Shown here one piece after another: positions 4,391 through 48,530 of a DNA stretch of 64,000 nucleotides. Below the pieces are notes generated by a model. It did not search any database. It had not been told where the DNA came from and was given only the letters and a program-made list of their open reading frames with translations. Positions within the stretch are counted from its first letter, which is position 1. Every line of letters starts with the position of its first letter. Source of the stretch: Thiomargarita sp. (GTDB lineage Bacteria; Pseudomonadota; Gammaproteobacteria; Beggiatoales; Beggiatoaceae); the NCBI GenBank assembly GCA_020721005.1, contig DYNP01000001.1, forward strand, positions 248,001 through 312,000, in the 5' to 3' direction. A program made the position numbers and the translations under genes.

Positions 4391-4939
4391 ATGAATCGAT
4401 TGACCGAAGTGACTAAATCTGAAGACATTTTTCCTGAATATCGGGAAACGCCCATTGGGCTGTTATTAGAATTTCAAAATTTAAATAAGCCATTGGACGA
4501 AATTGCCTATAGCCAAGCTCAACTGTTGATAGGCATGTGTATGGACAACCGTAAGCACTTGCATATTCCCGATAACTTTGCCTATATTATTCGGGCTGGG
4601 GGCGCAAATTTGAGATACAGCGAGTTTAAGGTCTCTTATGCCATTGCAGTTGGGAATATTCGGCATATTGTACTGATTGCTCACAATAATTGCGGCATGG
4701 TCAATTTAATAGCGCGGAAAGAGCAATTTGTCAATGGGTTAGTGACCAAAGCAGGTTGGGACAAGGAATGGGCAGAAGAGCATTTTATGCACTTTGCGCC
4801 CATGTTTGAGATTGGGAATGAGATTGATTTTGTGATCAGTGAAGCCAAGCGATTGCGGTTACGATACCCTCGGATGACTGTAGCGCCGTTGTTTTATAAA
4901 GTGGAAGACAATCGTCTGTATTTGGTAAATGAGCAGTAA
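4391..4939 (+). CDS. beta-class carbonic anhydrase-like protein
   Basis: Predicted cytoplasmic zinc enzyme interconverting CO2 and bicarbonate. The three expected zinc ligands and the Asp-Arg pair of beta carbonic anhydrases are all present: C50, D52 and R54 in CMDNR, then H98 and C101 in AHNNCGM. The RAGGAN segment at about 69-73 matches the conserved turn after the first metal-binding strand. At 182 residues it is on the short side of the family. In an autotrophic sulfur oxidiser such an enzyme would feed carbon fixation; this is inference. Its gene ends 26 bases before a 28-bp tandem repeat array that separates it from a convergent transporter gene. Confidence 0.82.
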   Translation: MNRLTEVTKSEDIFPEYRETPIGLLLEFQNLNKPLDEIAYSQAQLLIGMCMDNRKHLHIPDNFAYIIRAGGANLRYSEFKVSYAIAVGNIRHIVLIAHNNCGMVNLIARKEQFVNGLVTKAGWDKEWAEEHFMHFAPMFEIGNEIDFVISEAKRLRLRYPRMTVAPLFYKVEDNRLYLVNEQ

Positions 4940-4965
4940 ACTCATGGTAAGGGCGCAATCGTATT

Positions 4966-5329
4966 GGAATCGAGGCTTCAGCCGGCCAGTCCTGGACTCG
5001 AGGCTTCAGCCGGCCAGTCCTGGAGTCAAGGCTTCAGCCGGCCAGTCCTGGAGTCGAGGCTTCAGCCGGCCAGTCCTGGAATCGAGGCTTCAGCCGGCCA
5101 GTCCTGGAGTCGAGGCTTCAGCCGGCCAGTCCTGGAATCGAGGCTTCAGCCGGCCAGTCCTGGAATCGAGGCTTCAGCCGGCCAGTCCTGGAATCGAGGC
5201 TTCAGCCGGCCAGTCCTGGAATCGAGGCTTCAGCCGGCCAGTCCTGGAATCGAGGCTTCAGCCGGCCAGTCCTGGAATCGAGGCTTCAGCCGGCCAGTCC
5301 TGGAATCGAGGCTTCAGCCGGCCAGTCTT
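4966..5329. repeat. 28-bp tandem repeat array, 13 units
   Basis: Thirteen head-to-tail 28-base units fill 4966-5329 exactly (364 bases) with no spacers. Each unit is GGAnTCgAGGCTTCAGCC followed by GGCCAGTCCT; variation is almost confined to base 4 (A, C or G) and one G-to-A change in unit 3, and the last seven units are identical apart from one C-to-T at the very end. Because 28 is not divisible by three, all frames through the array stay open, which creates spurious reading frames. The unit contains the self-complementary GCCGGC and a GGCT/AGCC pair. The array lies between two convergent genes and ends 5 bases before the symporter stop codon. Confidence 0.97.
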
Positions 5330-5334
5330 GGCCG

Positions 5335-7437
5335 TTATTTGGAGGGGGGAGAAATTTGTTCTTGTCGGCGAAAGTCTTCCAATTCTTGATCGGACAGGGT
5401 GGAGAATTTTAGGTAGTAGGCTAAGAATGCCATCATGCCGACGCCAAACACCCACCAAACGGCCTGCCAGGCCCAGATGGGAAGTATTCCAAAAAACCAC
5501 CAGCTGTGGGGTTCGTTGGGGTTGCCAAAAAAGTCATTGCCTAAAATTACACCCGGTCCAATGGCAAAGGTGAACCAGAGTATAACTAGGAGCCAGCCGA
5601 TGAAGCCTGCGGTTTTTTTCGATTCGGGAAGGCTGTCATAAGTGCGTAGAAATTTGTGGTAACGCATTCGGTGTGACCGTTCTTGGAGATCTTGGGTGAG
5701 TAGGGAGATGAGGAGGGCGACCAGGATATTGGCGAACAGTCCCCAGCCTGCTGAGTGAATGGTGAGCGGATAACGCCAGTCAATACCAAATCCGGAGAAT
5801 AGGTTGTTGGGGTTGTCGGTTAAGAATACGACCAGCAGTCCAACCCAGATTCCCCAAAATATGCCTTTGCGGGTTAGGAAGGGCCACCAGCAGATTCCCC
5901 ACAGGGCGGGCAACATCTGCAGGCCACAGGCCACGGCCAGTCCGCCCAATAGGGCAATTGCTGATCCCTTAAATAGGATGGCAAGTATCAAGGCCATGAC
6001 AACAATGCCAACGCCAAACCAGCGCGCCAGTTTGATTTGAGTGTGGTCATTCCCAGGCTCGCTTAGGAAGCCGCGGGCAAAGTCTCGGGTGATGATGCTG
6101 CCAAAGGTGGAGATGTAGGAGGCAGCGGTGGATTGGAGGGCAGCGAGGGCGGTAATGGCGAAGAAAGCAATCAACAGGTTAAAAAAAATCATCTTACCGT
6201 CAACGGCGTCGAGTTTTTGAATGGACAGTATCAGATTGGGAATTAAGCGATCGGTTTCCAATACTTCCTTGATTTCCTTGATTTCCTTTGTTCCTTCTTT
6301 TTTCTGACACTCAATCTGTTTTACGGGAAGAGGGTCCACAATGGTTTTTTCCGGGGTAACTTGTTCTGGATAGGCTTTGGCAAATTCGGGATTGGCGCCG
6401 AGAAAGTGGGGACCTATGCCTTGCAGGGTGGTGAAAATCAGCATGACGAATCCAATGATCAGGGAGGAGGCTATCACTTGTTGATGGGCAAAGGCTTTGG
6501 GGTGTTGGTTAGAAAAGGCCCACATGGTGAAAGCCGGTGAGGTTTGAATGCCCATCAGAGCCAGCATAAAAGTGAGCAACATCATACCGGTCCACCCGTC
6601 ATTTTGGGTATCACACTTGAAATCCCAAACGTTCGATTGTATACTGCCAGGAACTGCAAAATAATGGCTGTAGTTTTCTGTGTGCGGGGCTCGCTGATAG
6701 TCAAAATCAGTCAGGTAAGTCATGCCCGTTTTCAGCTGTTCCCAGCCACCCACCTGAACCAGTACAATGATGCCCAAACCTATCATGCCGGTCAGCAGTA
6801 GCAAAAATTGCAGTTGGTCAATATAGGCGACGCGTCGGATTCCTTTGGGCAGGACATAGCCCAGCAGAAACATCGCCAAGATCACCATGATCAGTTTTTC
6901 AGCATTTTCTTCAGAAAATCCAGTCAGCTCAGAAAATCCAGTCAGCTTCCCTATTAGGTAACCGGAGGCCCGCAATTGCACTGCCACATACAGCAGGGAA
7001 AACAGCAGGGCCACCACACTGATCAGGATTTTTAATCCATCAAATCGGGGAATTGGTTTTCCCTCTCTTAGGTATTCTGCCGATTGATAATAGGTCGAGA
7101 ACATATCGCCGGGGGTGACAAATTGATAACGTTGTCCCAACAGCCATTGTCGTTTTAAGAATAAGACGCCACTGAAAGCGATGGTGATGGCATAGAATGA
7201 GATCAGAGAGGCTTGGAAACCGTCAGAGAAAATGAGCCCTGGATGACTGATAAAGGTCCAGCCAGAAAAGGAAGTGGCGGTGGCAGCAAGTATATACCAT
7301 TGGGGAGGTATGCCGCGATTGGCAATGAAATAGTCGACAGCGGTGGTGGGACGGGGAGTTTGTTTTTGGCCAGAAAATATACAATACATCCAATACAAGC
7401 CTACGGCTATGAGGATGTAAACCACAGGTGCATTCAT
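5335..7437 (-). CDS. sodium:solute symporter (SSS) family transporter
   Basis: Multispan inner-membrane carrier of the SSS family (pfam SSF), expected to couple sodium entry to solute uptake; the substrate cannot be told from sequence. From the chosen ATG at 7437 the protein has 700 residues and opens with a membrane helix (VVYILIAVGLYWMYCIF), then the family-like region ATATSFSGWTFISHPGLIF and about a dozen further hydrophobic helices. A charged insert at roughly 345-375 (rich in K and E, with KEIKEIKE) separates two helices. ATG 7437 is preceded by GGAG at suitable spacing; an upstream start at 7488 would overlap the divergent gene at 7477. The C-terminus abuts the 28-bp repeat array. Confidence 0.9.
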   Translation of the reverse strand: MNAPVVYILIAVGLYWMYCIFSGQKQTPRPTTAVDYFIANRGIPPQWYILAATATSFSGWTFISHPGLIFSDGFQASLISFYAITIAFSGVLFLKRQWLLGQRYQFVTPGDMFSTYYQSAEYLREGKPIPRFDGLKILISVVALLFSLLYVAVQLRASGYLIGKLTGFSELTGFSEENAEKLIMVILAMFLLGYVLPKGIRRVAYIDQLQFLLLLTGMIGLGIIVLVQVGGWEQLKTGMTYLTDFDYQRAPHTENYSHYFAVPGSIQSNVWDFKCDTQNDGWTGMMLLTFMLALMGIQTSPAFTMWAFSNQHPKAFAHQQVIASSLIIGFVMLIFTTLQGIGPHFLGANPEFAKAYPEQVTPEKTIVDPLPVKQIECQKKEGTKEIKEIKEVLETDRLIPNLILSIQKLDAVDGKMIFFNLLIAFFAITALAALQSTAASYISTFGSIITRDFARGFLSEPGNDHTQIKLARWFGVGIVVMALILAILFKGSAIALLGGLAVACGLQMLPALWGICWWPFLTRKGIFWGIWVGLLVVFLTDNPNNLFSGFGIDWRYPLTIHSAGWGLFANILVALLISLLTQDLQERSHRMRYHKFLRTYDSLPESKKTAGFIGWLLVILWFTFAIGPGVILGNDFFGNPNEPHSWWFFGILPIWAWQAVWWVFGVGMMAFLAYYLKFSTLSDQELEDFRRQEQISPPSK

Positions 7438-7476
7438 GATGGGCTCCATTGTGAGTGAGTTAAGCGGAGAATAGAC

Positions 7477-8652
7477 ATGTTCAAACAAATTGGGCTGTTA
7501 TGGATTGTTGCAATGGTTGGGTCAACTGGCGGACAAGCCGCAGGGCCCTCCACTCATTTTATGCTTAAAGAGGACGCTTATTTTCATACCGAAATTCCTT
7601 TGACAAAAGAGTATGACAAAGAGTATGCCAAGGACGAACAACCGTTTACTAGGGACTTCCTTCTTCCCAAGGGAGAGAAGGTTCAGGAAATGCCCAAAGA
7701 TAAGCACGGTGCTTATTCCCATTTTGCCTGCAAACGGGAAGGCAAGTTTGGTTTTCAAGTGAATTATGACTGGTCTTGGGTCAGAAGTTGGGCCTGCGTG
7801 GACAGAATTTCAAAACCCACTGCGTTTACTCCTCCTGTTTCAGAGGATAATTCTCCCTTAATTTTTTACACCCAAGACTTTCCCCCCTACAGTTTTTTGG
7901 AGGGTCAGGCAGCGGTAGGTCCTGGAGTTGCGCTGGTCAAATGGGGGTGCCAACAGGCCAAGTTGAGCAATTGTAAGATTACATTGGCCCAGGACCAGAC
8001 GGAGATTGAAGCAGCAGTGAACAAGGGCCAGGCGCATGGACTGTTTTTTGTCAGCAAGGATGAGAATCTACCCGGATTCGCACTGTCTCAACCCTTGATA
8101 GAAGGAGAATCTGGGTTCTTTGTGCACAAGGATCCGCAGTCACCACGATTCCACAATCCTAAGGATCTGGGGGGGAAAAAGATGGGGGTTTACGGTCCCT
8201 CAGCCACACAGACTGCGGCTGAACAATTGATCACAGCATTGGGCAAGGCTGGAATTTGGCTGACGCTCTGCCCTTTTTCAGAAAAAGAAAACGCTTTTAT
8301 ATGTAAGCTGGACAACAAGTCAGACACTTCGCAAGCTTTTACAACCTTATGTAAACCGGACAATAAGCCAGAGGACAATTGTGTGGACTTTGTTTACTCT
8401 AACAAGGCAGTAGGCGAGCGCATAGCTGACCAATTTGCGGCAAAATATGTGGGTCAACACAGGGGCTTTGGTTACCACATTGCTCTTAAAGAGGATTATC
8501 CCCCGGCTCAACTCTTCCTGCAAGCAATACGCCATATCCAAAATGAGGAGTTAAAGGCAATCCTGAGCAACTACGAGCAGGAAAAATTGCCTCTCGGCCA
8601 ATACCGGGAGGTTGGGTGGGTGTACAGGCCTATGCTCAATTCTGATCCTTGA
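7477..8652 (+). CDS. periplasmic solute-binding protein, SBP_bac_3-like
   Basis: Predicted exported protein of 391 residues with a signal peptide (positive start, hydrophobic core, cleavage after about GGQAA). Residues about 30-110 form a segment rich in aromatic and charged residues that I do not recognise. From about 125 onward it resembles family 3 binding proteins: PLIFYTQDFPPYSFLEG, then GPGVALVKW, and PKDLGGKKMGVYGPSATQTAAEQL where these proteins bind their ligand and hinge. Its start is 39 bases from the divergent symporter start, so the two may share a control region. The 3' end overlaps the last 17 bases of a convergent gene. No permease or ATPase partner is near, so a sensor-like or orphan role is possible. 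Confidence 0.75.
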   Translation: MFKQIGLLWIVAMVGSTGGQAAGPSTHFMLKEDAYFHTEIPLTKEYDKEYAKDEQPFTRDFLLPKGEKVQEMPKDKHGAYSHFACKREGKFGFQVNYDWSWVRSWACVDRISKPTAFTPPVSEDNSPLIFYTQDFPPYSFLEGQAAVGPGVALVKWGCQQAKLSNCKITLAQDQTEIEAAVNKGQAHGLFFVSKDENLPGFALSQPLIEGESGFFVHKDPQSPRFHNPKDLGGKKMGVYGPSATQTAAEQLITALGKAGIWLTLCPFSEKENAFICKLDNKSDTSQAFTTLCKPDNKPEDNCVDFVYSNKAVGERIADQFAAKYVGQHRGFGYHIALKEDYPPAQLFLQAIRHIQNEELKAILSNYEQEKLPLGQYREVGWVYRPMLNSDP

Positions 8653-38951: not shown

Positions 38952-38977
38952 GTTGGGTTACGCTCCGCTAACCCAAC
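38952..38977. repeat. hairpin element GTTGGGTTA-8-TAACCCAAC
   Basis: A perfect 9-base inverted repeat with loop CGCTCCGC, followed by CTAC, in the 96-base gap between the FIST gene and the NHL/caspase-like gene. Sequences of the form GTTGGGTTACGC...TAACCCAAC are a well-known dispersed intergenic hairpin in many bacterial genomes, so this is one copy of such an element rather than a gene-specific terminator. Confidence 0.8.
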
Positions 38978-39004: not shown

Positions 39005-41452
39005 TTACTTAACCTCAAAACTTTTTTGAATCAAAGTTTGAGAAGGTAATAAGGAATTGCGAAAGGGCAAATCTTCAGTGGGACTGTGCAACAGAAAAAC
39101 TTTATACTGACCCTTTTTAAGTATTTCTTTACCCACTGCCCCTTCAAACACTAATTCCCCAGCAGATGGCGGCCACAGAGGAAAATTATACGGATCATCA
39201 GTTATTGCAAAGGGTGAAAATTGATTCAGTCCCTTGGCTGCAAACAGTTTTTTATCGGGCAACATTATCACCACTGCTTGGGACCAATCTTCATCAACCA
39301 ACTGGGGAACTCGAATTTTCACCGTTTCTCCCTCTGAATAGCTGGGCTGGGATATCTCCGGCTCATTCCCCAACAAAGGTTCCTCCACAGTTGCTATAAC
39401 CATGCCCGAACCAATGTAGTAGTCTTTATAAGGTTCCACAGATTTATCAGATAAAACCAATTGTTCCTCAGTACCCCAAAAGAAAAGAGGCAGTTGTTCT
39501 GAGGGTATGTCCAGGTCCAGGTATTCATTCTGCGACTTTATTTTTAAGAGTGCTTCCGAAACCTGGCCTCCCCAATTCATGAGATTGCCCCACAATACCC
39601 AAGAAAGTGAAGTTTTTTTGTCAGGACTGAAAGGGCTGCCTATGAAAATCCGCAATCTCCCCTCAGGTATTTTCAAGGATTGTAAAGCTGAATACAATTC
39701 ATTGGAAGAAGGTCGATCGTCGATGATCAACATATTTCCCAAACTGTTGCTTTCAGCTTGTTTTATCCAATTAAGAACGGATTTAGTAGAAAAGGGACCG
39801 CGTTCATCGCCCACCCAATAGATCAGCCAGTCTTGGGTCTTTTCTTGTCCCCATTCAGTAAATGCAAAATCAAGATTCTTGCGGTTGAGTGAAGCAGTTA
39901 CTCCTTGACTTGGATGATTGCTCAAGTAATAAATATCTTCACTTTGATAACCTAAAGAGCGGAGAACCTGATAAGCTTTATCAGCCATCGGCACAGCATT
40001 TTTGGATTTGGAAGTGACCACCAATACAGCCCGATCTCGATAAGGATGGTTAATTTGTACAGACACAGTTTTCGGTCGCGCAATATTCCTCGATTGATCT
40101 TGAGCATAAATTACCAAGGAATAAGTGCCCGCTTCTTTAAAGGGAATGGAGCTGGTGTAGCGTTGCTCTTCCCCCCTCTCTCTTTCGCCAGTGGGAAGCA
40201 ACTCAAAACTGGGCATTTTTACCAAAGTCCCACTTGGAGAATAAGGAGATACTCCTGATTCTGGACGAATTTCTGCCCACACTTTGGCCACCGGCGAGTC
40301 TGAGATTTTGACATTGACTTCCATATCAACTTGTAAAGCATCTGTATCGATTTTCTCTGGAGAAACTGAAATGATTTCAGGGAGTTGATGATCAGTGGGG
40401 GTGTTGAGATTGCCAATCCAATAATTTTGAGCCAGTTGATGATCAGTTTCGGAATTCCCCTCGTGATCCCCAGTTGTTTCTAATTGGGGAGTTTGCTCAG
40501 ACTTGCCGGCAAGGACATGATCATAAGCCAAGGTAAATGCTTCTCCAATATTTGCGCCATATAGGATTGAATTCCAAAAGAAATACGAAAATGAAATTCC
40601 CGTATTGTGTATTTTGGCAGTTTCTTCCTTGTCAGCACTGGTAACTATGAGGCGCTTGGGTTTGGCCAAGGGCTTTATAAAACTGCCGGAGTAGCAGGCT
40701 TCGTAAATCAATTTGACAGTGCCATTCCCAGTTGCTTGAAATTCATCCAACCACTGGCTTAAATCAGTCACCTGCAACCTTTCACTGTCACTGTCACTTA
40801 AAACAAAGGCACCCTCTATTCCATGATCAACCAAATATAAGGTCAAATGACCTTGGGGATTGTCGGCCTTGGCCCATTCTGTAATTGCTTTTCTTATATT
40901 TTCCTGGGTGGGAGGACCATCTATGTCATCTGCTTTACCATTGCCATCCACGTCAGAACTCTCTTTCTTTACATTGTCATCTTGTTTATTATTGTTATCC
41001 GACTGATCAGAATTCTCTGCGGCCTTTTCATCCATCAAATAATGGATGTTTTGTTTGGTAAAACCTTGATAAATCAAGGTAAAATAAGCAAAATTACTAA
41101 GAAGTTGGGAGGCTTCCCAAAGTTTATCGCTTTCACCTTTTCTTCCCACCACGATAATGGCTTTTCCATCTTCAAATTGTTTGGGGGTGAATAGTTGAAT
41201 TCGATTGTGACCTGGGTCGGTTACATAGGCGATCCCTTGTGGGTCCACTGCAATTCCAATGGGTTGGTTAAATTGACCTGGGAATACTCCAAATTCTCCC
41301 CATTTGCTAACGAATTCAAAGGATTCTGAAAATTTTAGGATACGGGCATTGTTGGAATCGACCACATACAAGTTATTGTGTTGGTCAGCAAAAATACCAG
41401 CCAAGCGACTGAATTGGGTATTACACTCTTCTTTGGGATTGTAGGAATCCAA
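39005..41452 (-). CDS. caspase-like (clan CD) protein with NHL repeats; 3' part of a probably frameshifted gene
   Basis: An 815-residue frame starting TTG. Residues 1-95 hold two NHL propeller repeats (RLAGIFADQHNNLYVVDSNNARILKFSE; PIGIAVDPQGIAYVTDPGHNRIQLF). Residues about 95-330 form a caspase/legumain-like peptidase domain with catalytic H210 in LVDHGIEG and C253 in YEACYSGSF, interrupted by an Asp/Asn/Lys-rich insert at about 150-180. An Ig-like region follows (400-465), then a second domain of the same fold (RDRAVLVVTSKSKNA on) in which the His and Cys positions read WVGDERG and IIDDRPSS, so it is inactive. It has no signal peptide of its own and overlaps the preceding exported NHL protein by 32 bases in another frame; see the finding on the split gene. 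Confidence 0.83.
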   Translation of the reverse strand: MDSYNPKEECNTQFSRLAGIFADQHNNLYVVDSNNARILKFSESFEFVSKWGEFGVFPGQFNQPIGIAVDPQGIAYVTDPGHNRIQLFTPKQFEDGKAIIVVGRKGESDKLWEASQLLSNFAYFTLIYQGFTKQNIHYLMDEKAAENSDQSDNNNKQDDNVKKESSDVDGNGKADDIDGPPTQENIRKAITEWAKADNPQGHLTLYLVDHGIEGAFVLSDSDSERLQVTDLSQWLDEFQATGNGTVKLIYEACYSGSFIKPLAKPKRLIVTSADKEETAKIHNTGISFSYFFWNSILYGANIGEAFTLAYDHVLAGKSEQTPQLETTGDHEGNSETDHQLAQNYWIGNLNTPTDHQLPEIISVSPEKIDTDALQVDMEVNVKISDSPVAKVWAEIRPESGVSPYSPSGTLVKMPSFELLPTGERERGEEQRYTSSIPFKEAGTYSLVIYAQDQSRNIARPKTVSVQINHPYRDRAVLVVTSKSKNAVPMADKAYQVLRSLGYQSEDIYYLSNHPSQGVTASLNRKNLDFAFTEWGQEKTQDWLIYWVGDERGPFSTKSVLNWIKQAESNSLGNMLIIDDRPSSNELYSALQSLKIPEGRLRIFIGSPFSPDKKTSLSWVLWGNLMNWGGQVSEALLKIKSQNEYLDLDIPSEQLPLFFWGTEEQLVLSDKSVEPYKDYYIGSGMVIATVEEPLLGNEPEISQPSYSEGETVKIRVPQLVDEDWSQAVVIMLPDKKLFAAKGLNQFSPFAITDDPYNFPLWPPSAGELVFEGAVGKEILKKGQYKVFLLHSPTEDLPFRNSLLPSQTLIQKSFEVK

Positions 41453-43430
41453 ACACTCTACCGGGATTTAATTTCTTATATTGTCCATATTTTTCAATCA
41501 GTTTCCCCGTAAGATCAAATTTGACAATGTGGGGACCAACCAGTTTTTCTTCTGAGTTTACGTGAATATAGGTGTCGGTTACGTAAACGGCTTGGTCAGT
41601 GACTGCAATCCCAAAGGGAGCATTTAATTCTTCTCGACCCCCAAACTGATTTTGTAAATTGCCATTGGAATCATAGTGATAGATTCGTTTGCCCAGGCCG
41701 TCAACCACATAGATCTGGTCATTGCGATCTGCGGTAATATTGATGGGCACAATCAAATTGTTCAGCAATTCATTAACCGCTGAAATCAGTCCCCCATCGC
41801 CTAGAAATAAGAAAGGAGAGGTAAACGAGGAGGAAGGGGAGGATAAAGAGTTGAGAACATCACCGAAATTGTGCCAAGAGACCATTTCTTGTTGACATTC
41901 TTCATCCAATCGGTAAATTTGTAAATTTAAAGCATCTACCACGTAGACTCGTCCCTGACTGTCTACAGTTACGCTGATGGGTAATAAAAATTGTGCCTGT
42001 CCACAGGTGCTGTTTTGCCACTCAAGATCCAATTCCCAATCAGGTTTAAATTTCATGATTCGATGACGAAGTGCATCAGCCACATAAATAGCATTGGTGC
42101 GTGGACTGACAGCAATTCCCAAAGGTGCTGCTATTTTTTTGTTTTGACTTTGCTGATTTGACCAACGGGATCCAGGTTGTCCATTGGGAAAATAGTGTTG
42201 GATAGCGGATTCTGGGAATAGATAAGTTACATACAGATTGCCTTTATTGTCTTTACCCAGTCCACTGGGCACTGAAAATTTAACATTTCGTTCTTTAAAA
42301 TCATTGATCAGACTCAAAATGGCAGTCAATCCGTCTTCTACGTTGATTGAGCGCTCATGATTGGCAAATATTTTGAGAATTTCATTGCCAGTGACTTTCA
42401 TTTCTGAAGGGACGACAGGGGTGGCCGCTATTTGTTGTTGAATGAATTGAACTAATACTGAATTGAACCAGGCTTTGGGATCTCGCATTTTTTTCAGTAT
42501 TATTTCCAATGAAATTCCCTGGGCATCTCCCCATTCATCAACCAATTTTCCGTCTAGAGTAAATTTTTGGAGGCGGCTATTGCCTCGGTCAGCCACATAC
42601 AGATAATCGCCTATAACTTCAATATCTGCGGGGAATTTTAATTGTCCAGGCTCGCTGCCAAATTTGCCCCATTGAGTCAATAATTTGCCCTGAGCATCGT
42701 ATTTCCCAATGCAATGTTTATTTTCTTCAGAAATATAGAAATTTCCATAATCATCAAGAGCGAGGTGTAAGGTGTTAAAATGAGAGGCTTCTTCCTTCTC
42801 TGATTCCGAGTCTTGACAAACTTCTGAAATCAACCAACGTTGTATCAATTTGCCATTGGGATCAAATTTAGACAGGCTGCGTTGTTGGGCCAGATTGTTG
42901 GCTGCCACATACAAATTATCTTCCCGATCAATAACTAAGCTGTCTGCACCGTCTAGGCCATTGGTTTGTATATTTGCCACGGTTTGCTTTTTTTCCAGTT
43001 GCCATTCTTTAACATGTTGGCCTGCGGGCGTGAATTTTTGCACCACGATACCATCGATGATCCCAAATTCTGGGGGTCTCTCCTCTGTATAGGGATCATA
43101 ATCGGCTTCGGATTGGGTAAATCGATACAATACAAAGATAGATCCTTCACTGTCTACGGCCAATTTTCTGGGCACTATTTTCTTGTTCTCATGCCATTTC
43201 CAAGAGTCAATCAGGTGACCAGTAGAGGTGAGTTTTCGAATGAGAATATTGTCAGAATCGGTAACGTAGAAATTGCCTTGTTGATCTTCCACAATGTCCA
43301 AAGGTTGGGTAAAATACCAAGGTTGGGATAATAATGGCCAAAATTGCTTAAATTGATAGGTTTCTGTGGCAGCCAGGGGAAAATGGAATAAATAGAGGAG
43401 CAGAGTTAGGAAAACAAGGGGTATTTTCAT
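41421..43430 (-). CDS. exported NHL-repeat beta-propeller protein; 5' part of a probably frameshifted gene
   Basis: A 669-residue protein with a signal peptide (MKIPLVFLTLLLYLFHFPLA) and at least nine NHL-type repeats with the usual pattern, such as PLDIVEDQQGNFYVTDSDNILIRKL, KFPADIEVIGDYLYVADRGNSRLQKF, APLGIAVSPRTNAIYVADALRHRIMKF and APFGIAVTDQAVYVTDTYIH. Such propellers bind proteins or glycans. It ends abruptly (NPGRVFGFLQSQRRV) in the middle of a propeller blade, while the next frame downstream continues the blade. The ATG at 43430 has AAGGA at correct distance; a further-upstream start at 43589 would give an N-terminus lacking a signal. The gene is intact apart from this end. Confidence 0.85.
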   Translation of the reverse strand: MKIPLVFLTLLLYLFHFPLAATETYQFKQFWPLLSQPWYFTQPLDIVEDQQGNFYVTDSDNILIRKLTSTGHLIDSWKWHENKKIVPRKLAVDSEGSIFVLYRFTQSEADYDPYTEERPPEFGIIDGIVVQKFTPAGQHVKEWQLEKKQTVANIQTNGLDGADSLVIDREDNLYVAANNLAQQRSLSKFDPNGKLIQRWLISEVCQDSESEKEEASHFNTLHLALDDYGNFYISEENKHCIGKYDAQGKLLTQWGKFGSEPGQLKFPADIEVIGDYLYVADRGNSRLQKFTLDGKLVDEWGDAQGISLEIILKKMRDPKAWFNSVLVQFIQQQIAATPVVPSEMKVTGNEILKIFANHERSINVEDGLTAILSLINDFKERNVKFSVPSGLGKDNKGNLYVTYLFPESAIQHYFPNGQPGSRWSNQQSQNKKIAAPLGIAVSPRTNAIYVADALRHRIMKFKPDWELDLEWQNSTCGQAQFLLPISVTVDSQGRVYVVDALNLQIYRLDEECQQEMVSWHNFGDVLNSLSSPSSSFTSPFLFLGDGGLISAVNELLNNLIVPINITADRNDQIYVVDGLGKRIYHYDSNGNLQNQFGGREELNAPFGIAVTDQAVYVTDTYIHVNSEEKLVGPHIVKFDLTGKLIEKYGQYKKLNPGRVFGFLQSQRRV

Positions 43431-43749
43431 AATTGGTCCTTTATGAAACGGTGAGGAGAATAATATTGTGGGTGAATAATACAGAAACCTGCACCACAGT
43501 TCAACGGAAGTGTGATTGTTGAAGTTTATACTATTTAAATATGTGATTGGCTCATCGTCGTTATCGTTTAAAAGTACTATTATACACAAATTTCAGGTCA
43601 TGCCAAATGGATTGGTGGGATTTTAGGGTTATGGGAAGCCCATTGACATAATTGTACTTGTTTATGAGGTACTGGTGAGGAAAATCAGGGCCAAAAAAAA
43701 GGAGGGAGTTTGACTCCCTCCTAAAAGTGCCTAGTTACTTAGCAACTGG
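43431..43749. other. gene-free region upstream of the NHL gene
   Basis: Contains the promoter region of the NHL gene and, at its far end, the terminator of the choice-of-anchor-D gene described separately. AT-rich around 43510-43550 (TATACTATTTAAATATG). No reading frame or repeat supported otherwise. Confidence 0.5.
43693..43721 (-). terminator. rho-independent terminator of the choice-of-anchor-D gene
   Basis: Read on the minus strand it is a perfect 9-base stem, GGAGGGAGT and ACTCCCTCC with a 3-base loop (43701-43721), followed immediately by a run of eight T (43700 to 43693). It lies 29 bases past the stop codon at 43750, which places it for the gene that ends there and keeps its transcript from entering the NHL gene. 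Confidence 0.92.
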
Positions 43750-46700
43750 TTAGTTGGTGGGGGTAGGTAAGATGGTCACATCGATGGGGTCGACGCTCAT
43801 CACTACTTTGCCCGTGCTCTGTACTCGATAACCAAACCAAATCTTTAACGGACCTGGGTAGACAAAGTTGCCTGAATACATGTAGACCGTGTAGTAAGCG
43901 GGCAGACTGTCGACGGTTTCTAAGGCCGCAGCTTCAGTTAAGTTAGGCGCTTCGGTCGCAGGATCGAAGGGCAGAATCCCAATGGTCCATCCTAAGGGAC
44001 TTTGTGGATAGGCCATCATCATGTACCAAGCCATACCTTCTGGATACATATCCCAATCGTGCCGACCGATGACCAGAATATCAGCAGCTTGACCGATGTC
44101 AGCTGTGTCTACTCGGATAGCGCCAGCGGTTTTGATCGGATCGATCAGGGTGACTGTATCTTGTTGCTTGTACACACCGTTGAATTTAGAGATACCCATC
44201 CGCATGGCTGCAGTGCCTGGGTTGCCAGTGCTGCTTTCAGCGGTGCTGAGTGTTGCCGCTTCGCATTTATCACCGCCCATCAAGACACCTAAGCCTTGTT
44301 CAAAGCAATCGCCTTCGATGGAAGGAATGTTTTTGAAGACTGCTTGGCAACTGAGGGGTGTGGTGCTGACGGTAAGGGTGGCTGGATTGCCTTGACCTGC
44401 GCAATCTCCTGTCCAACTGTCAAATTGAGCGGATGCTGAGTTGGCAGTTAAGGTGAGGGTTTCGCCCACTGTATAGCTGGCTGAGCACAGGTTGCCGCAA
44501 TCAATTTTACCATCGGCAGTGCTGAGAGTCCCATTGTCAGGTTTGGTGACGCTGACAGCCACACTTTCAGGCGCTGTGGAGGCGAAAGTGGCTGCGCATT
44601 CCAGAGTTTCAGTTAAAGTCAAGTTGATGGGGTTGGTGGCGCCATGACCGCTGCAATCTCCACTCCAAGCTGAGAATGTATAGCCATCAGCAGCAGTGGC
44701 AGTGACAGTGACCCGATCGCCTGAGGCAAACGTGGCCGTGCAAGCGCTGCCGCAATCGATGCCGCCCACATCAGTGATGACTGTACCATTTTGGGGGGCA
44801 GTGAAGGTTAAGTTCACTTGTTGCACGGGCACAAAGAAGGTGGCTGTGCAAGTTTTTGCCGCGTCAACAGTGACGATCACTGGATTTTCAGTCCCAGTGC
44901 ATCCACCGGTCCAATCTTTAAATTCACTGCCAGCATCTGGAGTGGCAGTTAAAGTGACTGCGGTCCCAAGAGTGTAAGTGTATTCGCATTGGGCTGCATT
45001 TGTTCCGCAACTGAGTTGTCCATCGGCGCTTTCCACAAGGCCATTGCCATTCCGAGAAATGGTGAGGGCTGCCACGTCAACTGGAGGATCAACCACTGGA
45101 TTCCCCACTTTACCGGTCAATGGGAAGTCATAAGGAGTTTCGTCCACATCGCTGTTGAACAATTCCAGACTGCCTTCATACACGCCATCAGTGGTGCCAT
45201 TGAGAATCACATCAAAGCTGACTTGTTGTTGAGGCGCCACGGTGGATAAAGTGACTCCTTTTTGCAGTTCATAACCCACTGGCAATCTTAAGCTGTACAA
45301 AGTCAGGACTTCGCTGCCCAAGTTTTTCACTGTGAAAGTTTGGATGCTGGGCGTGCCCACTGGAGTGGTCCCAAAATCAACTTTATTGGTGTCGCCATCG
45401 GGAATTTGAATGGCAGTGCCGGCAGTGATGTCAGCGGGGGAACCATCCCACACTTCAATTTCTTCAGTGGTGGGCGGTGTGCTGTCCACAGTCCCTGACA
45501 CTGGGAAGGTGTATGGATTCTCATCTTTGTCATCGTTGCCAAAAGTCACCGTGCCTGTGTAAGTGCCGGCAGTGCTGGCATTTAAAGTTACAGTGAAGGA
45601 AGTGAAGCCGCCTTTGGCCACGGGACCTGGGTTAAAGGAATTGATGGTAAAGCCCGTGCCGCCCTCTTTGAAACTGGCTGGGGTGGTCAGATTCAGATCA
45701 GCTTCGCCAATGTTTTTAATGGTGAAAATTTTGGACACCGAGTTGCCAATTCCAGTGGGACCGAAGGTCACGGGAACTGCAGTGCCATTGGCCACAGAGA
45801 TAGTACCGTCTAAGACATCGATTTCTGGGGCAGGCACATCCACGCTGGCACCAATTGGGAAGCTGAACGGGTTTTCATCTACGTCCGTGCTGTAGAATTC
45901 CAAAGTACCACCGTAGTTAGCCACGGCGCTGGTATCCAGTTTGATTTGAAAATCCACGGTTTGACCGGGCAGCACTTTGGTTGGGAACACACCCACCAGA
46001 CTGAAGCCTTTGGGCAGAGGAGATAGAGCAGTCAGATCCAGGGCCACACCGCCAATATTTTTGACTTTGAAGGTTTTGGTGACTGGAGTGTTGATCGCAG
46101 CGCTGAAATCCACAATATCGGTTTGCTCATCAAAGATTTCATCTAAACTGGCATCGTCCAAAACTTCCCACACCGTTACTTCAGGAGTAGTCAGACTGCT
46201 GAGAATTGTACCAGTCACGACAAAAGTAAATGGATTTTCATCCGTGTCATCGTTGGCAATAGAGACTGTGCCCGTAAATTCGCCAGCAGTGGCCGCTTCT
46301 AAGGTCACGGTAAACTCGACCTTGTCTTTAGCACCGCCAGCAGCATCCAAAGTGGTCGCAGCCAAACTGCTCAGTTTTAGACCAGTCCCACCCGTGCTGA
46401 ATTGCAGACTGTCAATTTTCAGAGCAGTGCCGCCAATGTTTTGAATGGTAAAAGTCTTGGTGATAGGCGTGCCGACAACGCCACCAGGTGCAGTGGTGAG
46501 GTTAATCGTCGTGCCTTTCGCAATGTTCACCGTCCCATCAAATACTTCGATTTCCTTGGTGGCAGACATGGCAGTGCCGCTTAAGAGAATATCAAAGGGA
46601 TTTTCATTGTTGAGAATGGAGTTGTTAAAGATTTGCAGATAAGCATTGTAACCGCCAACAGCCGGTGGGGTGAAAGTGACTTTGAAAGTGGCTGTGGCAC

Positions 46701-48213
46701 TGGGGGCCAGAAAGTCTGGGAATGGAGAAGTGACTGGCGCCCAACTGAAGTTGGAAGCATTGAGTCCGCCAATACTCAGCGCATTCAGATCCAAATCTGC
46801 AGTACCAATATTGGTGATCACAAAGTTACGAGAGACTGGAGTACCGGCAAAAGTCATAGGGAATGGCGTCGTGGGTGCTACACCGTCAAAAACTTCAATA
46901 GTCCCAAGGGTTTCTTCCCAAACTTGAATGTCGGCAGCAGGACCAACCCCTGTTACAGTGATTGAGACAGGGAAATTAAAGGGGTTTTCAATACCTTCTT
47001 GGAAAGCGGAGTCTGTACTGTCAATAACAACTTCAGTATCATATACTCCAGGTTGAGCACTGGCTGGATCAAAACGAATTGTAAAGGTTGCGCTTCCTCC
47101 AGCAGGAACCATACTAGGATAAGGGTCAACTCTCATAAAGTACGGAGAAGCTGGGGAAAATGTCAAACTGGTTACTGATAAATCACCTGTGCCCGGGTTT
47201 TGAATGGTGAAGATTTTTTCCACCATAGTTCCTCCAGCTGTTGCATCAGGTAGAATTATTGCAGTAGCGGTATTGTCTACCAATTCCGTTGTTCCATCAA
47301 GCACATCAATTTCAGCTTGACCTGCTGGAGGAGCAGCTAAAACAATTCCTCTCACCGCAAAATCAAAAGAAACTGGCGGAGCTCCTAAAATATTGGTAGC
47401 ACTGCTGGTAATATTCAGTACACAATCGTAGTTACCTGCTGGTGTACCTACTGGAGGTAGAAATTGAACTTGAAAGTCAGAGCTTCCATTGGCTGGTATT
47501 GTGAATGCCGCTGATGTGAAGTCTGGAGCAGCAGTCAAGTCAGGATCAACTATGGTAAATTTAGGTTCAACTGCTCCCCCCACTGTGCAACTAATTGCAG
47601 TGGTTGCAGGGGCAAGTGGTGTAAATACCAACGGAGAACTGCCAGTATTCTTGACCGTAAGAGTTTTTAAAACTGCAGTACCCGCAACAGTTTCGCCAAT
47701 TAATTTGGGTTGAGTTTCGCCGTCGTTGATCAAAGTCCCTGCATCAGACACTTCAATAGACCCACTGCTCGCTGTGGCAAGACCCCCAGAGACAAGGGCA
47801 GTAAATGTTGCTGTATTTGAGGGAATGGCATTGGCAGTGACTATGAAAGTTTCGGCTGCTACAGAACCAACAAGAGTGTCAACAGCCAGCACATGGCCTG
47901 TTCCAGCCACTGTTGTTGCAAAAGGGGCAGCAGGAGCTGTGTAAGAAGTGCCAGATACTGCTGTTCCAGTCAATGTGTAAGTGATTGTATCTCCGATCAC
48001 AGAAGGAGTGTTCAACTCGAAAATGACTTGTATTCCCCCTGCCGTTGCTGTAGCTGCAAGAGGGGTTGACGGCATAACACTGACCTTAGTCACGTTTGCT
48101 GTCACATCAGCCGCCCACGATACCGCGGGTCCTGTCAATAAAGCCAGCCCCATTCCTGCGGCTAGCCACCAGCGCGAACGCCGGTAATGTTGATTAAAAT
48201 AACGGTCTTTCAT
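43750..48213 (-). CDS. giant exported choice-of-anchor-D / cysteine-repeat protein
   Basis: A 1487-residue secreted protein. The signal peptide is MKDRYFNQHYRRSRWWLAAG to about SWA. It has an N-terminal Calx-like region, then a series of roughly eight Ig-like choice-of-anchor-D/HYDIN-type repeats (each about 110-130 residues with KTFTIQNIGGTALKIDSL, EFTVTLEAATAGEFTGTVSI and DENPFTFVVTG-like cores) and three repeats of about 70 residues (near 1085-1300) with exactly four cysteines each, the pairs lying in DCG..C and GDC/C..F. A unique C-terminal domain of about 170 residues follows. No sortase or lipid anchor is seen, so the protein is probably adhesive or a surface or sheath component. Start ATG 48213 follows AAGAGG. 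Its terminator is at 43693. Confidence 0.87.
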   Translation of the reverse strand: MKDRYFNQHYRRSRWWLAAGMGLALLTGPAVSWAADVTANVTKVSVMPSTPLAATATAGGIQVIFELNTPSVIGDTITYTLTGTAVSGTSYTAPAAPFATTVAGTGHVLAVDTLVGSVAAETFIVTANAIPSNTATFTALVSGGLATASSGSIEVSDAGTLINDGETQPKLIGETVAGTAVLKTLTVKNTGSSPLVFTPLAPATTAISCTVGGAVEPKFTIVDPDLTAAPDFTSAAFTIPANGSSDFQVQFLPPVGTPAGNYDCVLNITSSATNILGAPPVSFDFAVRGIVLAAPPAGQAEIDVLDGTTELVDNTATAIILPDATAGGTMVEKIFTIQNPGTGDLSVTSLTFSPASPYFMRVDPYPSMVPAGGSATFTIRFDPASAQPGVYDTEVVIDSTDSAFQEGIENPFNFPVSITVTGVGPAADIQVWEETLGTIEVFDGVAPTTPFPMTFAGTPVSRNFVITNIGTADLDLNALSIGGLNASNFSWAPVTSPFPDFLAPSATATFKVTFTPPAVGGYNAYLQIFNNSILNNENPFDILLSGTAMSATKEIEVFDGTVNIAKGTTINLTTAPGGVVGTPITKTFTIQNIGGTALKIDSLQFSTGGTGLKLSSLAATTLDAAGGAKDKVEFTVTLEAATAGEFTGTVSIANDDTDENPFTFVVTGTILSSLTTPEVTVWEVLDDASLDEIFDEQTDIVDFSAAINTPVTKTFKVKNIGGVALDLTALSPLPKGFSLVGVFPTKVLPGQTVDFQIKLDTSAVANYGGTLEFYSTDVDENPFSFPIGASVDVPAPEIDVLDGTISVANGTAVPVTFGPTGIGNSVSKIFTIKNIGEADLNLTTPASFKEGGTGFTINSFNPGPVAKGGFTSFTVTLNASTAGTYTGTVTFGNDDKDENPYTFPVSGTVDSTPPTTEEIEVWDGSPADITAGTAIQIPDGDTNKVDFGTTPVGTPSIQTFTVKNLGSEVLTLYSLRLPVGYELQKGVTLSTVAPQQQVSFDVILNGTTDGVYEGSLELFNSDVDETPYDFPLTGKVGNPVVDPPVDVAALTISRNGNGLVESADGQLSCGTNAAQCEYTYTLGTAVTLTATPDAGSEFKDWTGGCTGTENPVIVTVDAAKTCTATFFVPVQQVNLTFTAPQNGTVITDVGGIDCGSACTATFASGDRVTVTATAADGYTFSAWSGDCSGHGATNPINLTLTETLECAATFASTAPESVAVSVTKPDNGTLSTADGKIDCGNLCSASYTVGETLTLTANSASAQFDSWTGDCAGQGNPATLTVSTTPLSCQAVFKNIPSIEGDCFEQGLGVLMGGDKCEAATLSTAESSTGNPGTAAMRMGISKFNGVYKQQDTVTLIDPIKTAGAIRVDTADIGQAADILVIGRHDWDMYPEGMAWYMMMAYPQSPLGWTIGILPFDPATEAPNLTEAAALETVDSLPAYYTVYMYSGNFVYPGPLKIWFGYRVQSTGKVVMSVDPIDVTILPTPTN

Positions 48214-48530
48214 AATGAGTAAACCTCTTAAAAGTAAAATGATTAAAAAGCAACCTACAAAACTCATGCCATCTTCCTAAAATGGTGATGCCAGCCCCTG
48301 TTTACAAGCCATTCAGTGGGCCTCCTCAAAATTGAATGTCCAAAAACTGACTCCTGAGTTTACGGTTACACTCATTAATTTTAACATACACTAACCCAAA
48401 ATAGCCACAATCTGAGTTATTTTGCAGTGTTAGAAAATCAACAGGGGGGTGTTGTAAAAACAACAATCCCATTTTGACTGACTGTCCCTCAATCCTCGAA
48501 AGCGATATAATAAAACTTCCTCTGCTCTTT

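Follow-up and report, generated by a model that had tools for sequence, protein, structure and literature searches.

The window, meaning the whole 64,000-nt stretch of Thiomargarita sp. DNA analysed here, carries on its minus strand two long open frames, hereafter frame A and frame B, which share 44 nt and stand one base out of phase with each other (Table 1). Frame A encodes a conserved 'WPLLxQPWYF' stretch, a first NHL propeller and four blades of a second propeller, and an AAGGA word was read in the sequence 7-11 bases 5' of its ATG. A promoter-like site lies further upstream; such sites number 22 in the region against 11.7 expected. Frame B encodes, in order, the last two blades, a C13 protease, an Ig-like part, a degenerate second C13-like part and a C-terminal beta part. 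The nearest in-frame stop upstream of frame B is at 41470-41468, and its first available start is the TTG at 41452. The initial annotation had described these frames as one split gene, and the coordinates, the overlap and the one-base offset were confirmed. The absence of a signal peptide from frame B and the position of its first start were likewise borne out by the frame translation. Reading through A and B gives about 1474 residues by a recount from the coordinates, in agreement with the ~1470 claimed earlier. The gene is single-copy in the window's own genome.

Table 1. Features of the propeller-protease locus, with window coordinates and the basis of each assignment.
Feature	Position	Strand	Basis or remark
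Promoter-like TTGGCA-16-TATAAT upstream of frame A	43579..43606	minus	11/12 consensus match alone
Frame A	43430-41421	minus	ATG 43430, stop 41423-41421, 669 aa
Signal-peptide-like N-terminus of frame A	43368..43430	minus	~21 residues, hydrophobic, limits estimated; similar starts in relatives
Second six-bladed NHL propeller (predicted)	41171..42158	minus	Read-through model residues 404-732; crosses the joint
A/B overlap	41424..41467	minus	Slip must fall inside; stops of each frame, codon-usage switch
Frame B	41467-39005	minus	Open for 820 codons up to the stop
TTG in frame B	41450..41452	minus	First possible start; judged unreal
Legumain-like C13 protease domain	40403..41176	minus	Pfam, model, alignment
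Ig-like beta part between the protease-like parts	40052..40384	minus	Model; weak InlK_D3 match below cut-off
Second protease-like part	39518..40039	minus	Helix/strand order as in the first (model); alignment

NHL repeats were detected by Pfam in both frames, at 87.5 bits in frame A and 40.8 bits in frame B, both above the cut-off of 20. To place the joint within the fold, we used a model of the read-through protein without its signal peptide, cut at 1060 residues and built from an alignment of 10 rows (mean pLDDT 69.4, pTM 0.71). By our own count of strands this model has twelve blades, and the strand list assigns four blades of the second propeller to the part before the joint and two to the part after it. 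Among solved structures, which were the scope of all fold comparisons, six-bladed propellers matched the second propeller well, including 7djl_B over residues 404-732 (Z 29.4, rmsd 2.9, 274 aligned) and 6g7w over residues 404-730 (Z 28.4, rmsd 2.7, 267 aligned). The best fold match overall was 6xg7 (Z 37.0, 273 aligned), which used the N-terminal strand as well. The fold is thus shared with the six-bladed NHL propellers of TRIM71, Thin, Brat and NHLRC2, whereas the window protein is predicted to differ from these in having two tandem propellers with helical inserts and in being an exported bacterial protein.

The joint falls at model residue 637, in a low-confidence loop between blades (631-649). 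The earlier statement that frame A ends mid-blade was therefore not upheld in the predicted model. A closed, six-bladed second propeller was obtained in the read-through protein only; A or B alone is short of blades in the model, and the split products would leave the second propeller open. With an alignment of 10 rows behind it and low confidence around the joint, the model fits the joining of the two frames without proving it.

The protease domain of frame B matched Pfam Peptidase_C13 at 40.0 bits (cut-off 22.8). His215 (codon 40825-40823) and Cys258 (codon 40696-40694) are invariant in 9/9 alignment rows, the window's own row included, and we take them to be the catalytic pair from legumain motifs and from the fold match. 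When frame B was modelled (mean pLDDT 71.4, pTM 0.47), the domain ranked closest to legumain (Z about 24), ahead of metacaspase (about 19.7), with caspases lower still (about 18). The initial annotation described this part as caspase-like; its fold similarity to caspases and metacaspases has Z of 18-20, and the domain is nearer to legumain of family C13. The six Pfam families listed for frame B, with E values no higher than 0.1, include no caspase family. Legumain, or asparaginyl endopeptidase (4n6o_A, Z 24.2, rmsd 2.7, 220 aligned), has the fold and the His/Cys pair in common with the window protease, which differs from it in that propellers and a dead second copy are fused to it. Bacterial metacaspases or orthocaspases (C14) also have the general caspase-like fold (8a53_D, Z 19.7) and the His/Cys pair in common with it, although their structural score is below that of legumain.

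In the second C13-like part of the window gene both the His and the Cys are absent from the alignment. The locus thus has a tandem protease pair, with one active-looking and one degenerate copy. In one relative (P0008) the second C13-like part keeps the Cys without the His, and Pfam sees two C13 stretches. Three other C13 protease places were observed in the window's genome, all on one contig within ~16 kb (G000:C126:78280-94596).

To see how the gene is organized elsewhere, we searched 57 genomes, three of which had clear long relatives of frame B: Thiotrichaceae bacterium S06.Bin195, Ca. Parabeggiatoa 4572_84 and BB3. The open frames of these relatives have 1503 (S06.Bin195), 1517 (4572_84), and 1233 and 1601 (BB3) residues. 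A profile of four relatives aligned with frame A over its positions 1-606 and with frame B over its positions 625-1198, neighbouring on one contig, and in tblastn with the S06.Bin195 relative the match to frame A stopped at query residue 596 and that to frame B resumed at 600. Such adjacent matches indicate that the pairing of A and B is not due to chance.

Nine relatives were translated, one each from S06.Bin195, Parabeggiatoa and HSG1 and three each from BB3 and Desulfobacteraceae S08.Bin136. They come from loci L049-L055, with L052 and L054 holding two apiece; L056-L058 were left out of the comparison, as only the protease part matched and the joint was uncovered. All nine cross the joint in a single frame, the three Desulfobacteraceae copies among them. 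Full-length copies make up five of the nine (1488, 1505, 1600, 1636 and 1836 aa), and the other four are cut at contig or locus ends or, in P0011, have a late start near the contig end. The complete copies from S06.Bin195 (JAABRD010000013.1, 1488 aa) and Ca. Parabeggiatoa 4572_84 (NBMI01000184.1, 1505 aa), the latter genome being placed in Beggiatoaceae by PMC11172852, have the same part order as the window gene over the whole stretch between the conserved N-terminus and the second protease-like part. Unlike the window's copy, both have an uninterrupted frame; their identity to it is 27-29% before the joint and 40-42% after.

A profile search of 42 genomes of the family, the window's own included, gave at least 12 places, two of them the halves of the window gene, eight that span the joint and two that fall short of it (G311:C734 and G021:C82). 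In the 41 other genomes every place that covers the joint has one open frame (8/8), among the matches listed at a threshold of 1e-60 with at most 13 candidates scored in many genomes, so that remoter copies stand outside this count. The single TAG in the joint-covering rows (G021:C14) is the terminal stop by its coordinates. Two of these places (G310 and G021:C170) are known from the rows of this search alone, without translation, and six of the eight are probably among the nine translated copies. In the comparison with homologues that had been proposed at the outset, the copies were continuous, and two-gene encoding was seen in none of the relatives examined (nine translated; eight joint-covering family places).

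We consider it very probable that A and B form one gene for one exported protein, split by a small non-programmed slip within the 44 nt of overlap. The earlier reading of the locus as one NHL-propeller/protease gene split by a frameshift is supported by the continuous relatives (9/9 translated; 8/8 joint-covering). Codon usage prefers frame A until about 41460 and has turned to frame B by about 41430, with the switch at ~41450. Two long open frames with a short overlap could also reflect a programmed +1 frameshift, by which ribosomes would yield a short propeller protein alongside the complete protease. This is extremely unlikely, as the split frame occurs in none of the relatives examined and as the stimulating signals looked for, which were of two types, are lacking: our reading of the sequence found no Shine-Dalgarno-like stimulator ahead of the overlap, and the RNA fold at the joint is no better than that of shuffled sequences (z +0.91; 164/200 shuffles equal or better). 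Moreover, codon usage switches ~30 nt before the stop of frame A and not at the stop, at the coarse resolution of this measure.

Overlapping neighbours are common on the contig, which would fit two genuine genes produced by gene fission, the second starting from TTG 41452. We judge this very unlikely because 9/9 translated relatives are fused, and because frame B, without a signal peptide, would begin with two orphan blades. The entry for this gene in the contig codon-model scan has no Shine-Dalgarno-like word before the frame B starts near the joint. The read-through loop at the joint also contains two Cys residues, as it does in the three BB3 copies (3/9 relatives, from one genome), and the codon of the first directly precedes TTG 41452; a Cys codon in common just before the supposed start argues against a new gene beginning there. 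Both the programmed shift and the two genes were rejected on the continuous relatives and the lack of a start signal and of an RNA fold. There is a highly improbable further reading in which the slip is real and switchable, so that the propeller would be made with or without the protease through a lineage-specific ribosomal shift or through reversible indels in the population, in a genome whose lapB likewise has its frame broken by a tandem duplication. Since the relatives carry the gene whole, the split is most likely an ordinary one, caused by an error or a recent mutation.

Between the two causes of a single split gene, we give a sequencing or assembly error about an even chance, slightly likelier than a true recent mutation. 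The frame B identity to the three Desulfobacteraceae copies is 37.8, 35.2 and 39.3%, and that of the intact S06.Bin195 copy is 39.6, 36.8 and 39.6%; before the joint the window's protein is somewhat less close to them, at 29.7, 29.0 and 30.1% versus 33.3, 31.5 and 35.9% for S06.Bin195. Frame B, which would be the untranslated part of a split gene, has therefore remained as similar to these copies as S06.Bin195 has and is without decay, so that the slip is either a recent event or an artefact. Frame errors of sequencing are commonest in long homopolymers, and the joint lies outside any of these; direct repeats that could have caused a slip were not found at the joint. A precedent for frame-shift sequencing errors in the family comes from the PacBio genomes of Beggiatoa leptomitoformis, in which 65 (D-401) and 22 (D-402T) sites were corrected and pseudogenes were about halved (PMC7356093).

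That the sequence is correct and the strain has a true recent mutation, as a young pseudogene or a polymorphism, has somewhat less than an even chance, which is part of the probability given above to a single split gene. It would require a very recent mutation, given the 820 open codons of frame B and their lack of decay. In its favour, the contig also carries a lapB that is broken at a perfect 14-base tandem duplication, a kind of change that occurs in cells, and in Ca. Thiomargarita nelsonii, another member of the group, 1120 of the 7125 genes were annotated as disrupted, whether real or erroneous (PMC4853749).

The broken lapB frame lies 0.8 kb to the left of the window, with the duplication at about 247176-247204 of the contig (L077 7176-7204). 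The two halves lie in different frames and cover positions 1-161 and 156-385 of the LapB profile, and the genome has no other strong LapB match, four further profile matches being weak at 44-52 bits. LapB is essential in E. coli. A 14-base duplication is unlike a typical base-calling error and rather favours a true mutation at lapB; the break itself may be an error or a true mutation, and so may bear either way on the slip in the window gene.

Over 452,000 of the 454,268 bases of the contig, a scan with a codon model found 29 frame switches that are flanked on each side by 150 nt or more. Translations of seven of these were inspected, and profiles were run on four of those pairs and on the lapB pair. 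Homology shows two genes to be split, the window gene and lapB. Of the four pairs, one comprises members of two distinct families (RnfD type and FMN-binding), and in the other three no Pfam family was found for the second half. In the scan of the window only, eight switches were found, namely the window gene, four at neighbouring or overlapping genes and three opposite long minus-strand frames.

Read as one gene, the locus would encode a protein of ~1474 residues with a signal peptide, two six-bladed NHL propellers, a C13 protease, an Ig-like part and a dead C13-like part. Given the signal peptide, the whole protein is presumably exported. Binding of partners or polymers is the usual role of propellers, and those of the window protein would bind a partner or polymer beyond the inner membrane, where the active-looking C13 domain should cut protein substrates. 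The dead second C13-like copy may regulate the protease. If the sequence is taken literally, the products would be an exported propeller fragment minus two blades and the protease, with frame B hardly made.

A gene caller would annotate the locus as a truncated exported propeller and a signal-less protease, and the presence of a legumain-like protease that is exported would be missed. Together, the relatives define a little-described exported architecture of tandem NHL propellers, an active-looking C13 domain and a dead C13-like copy, which was found in Beggiatoaceae and in one Desulfobacteraceae genome. With mostly narrow queries of the open-licence literature, we found no description of NHL fusions with C13 or caspase, and the text of one survey (PMC3501461) mentions neither NHL nor propeller, Beggiatoa, C13 or legumain. 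The group is rich in caspase-like genes, with 59 metacaspases given for Ca. Thiomargarita nelsonii (PMC4853749).

Several observations were made on the surroundings of the gene. In three relatives a carboxypeptidase-regulatory-like exported protein is encoded beside the propeller-protease gene (L044 7476-8594; L053 3551-4654; L052 11648-12556), 3-4 nt downstream in two of them and upstream in L052, with the domain scoring above the cut-off in L044 only. The window's genome has one homologue of this neighbour, on another contig (C104:196508-197623). Upstream of the window gene, 43750-48267 encodes an exported-looking protein of 1505 aa that consists of HYDIN/ASH-like Ig repeats together with units resembling InlB B-repeats. 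A perfect inverted repeat, GTTGGGTTACGCTCCGCTAACCCAAC, is located at 38952-38977 between the propeller-protease gene and a FIST-domain gene; it was considered as a mobile element and rejected, as the genome holds only two copies, one of them mismatched. Elsewhere in the window, 4929-5573 is an open frame of near-identical ~28-residue peptide repeats ('GFSRPVLESRLQPASPG...'), partly opposite the 5335-7488 frame, and is probably not a gene but an array of DNA repeats.
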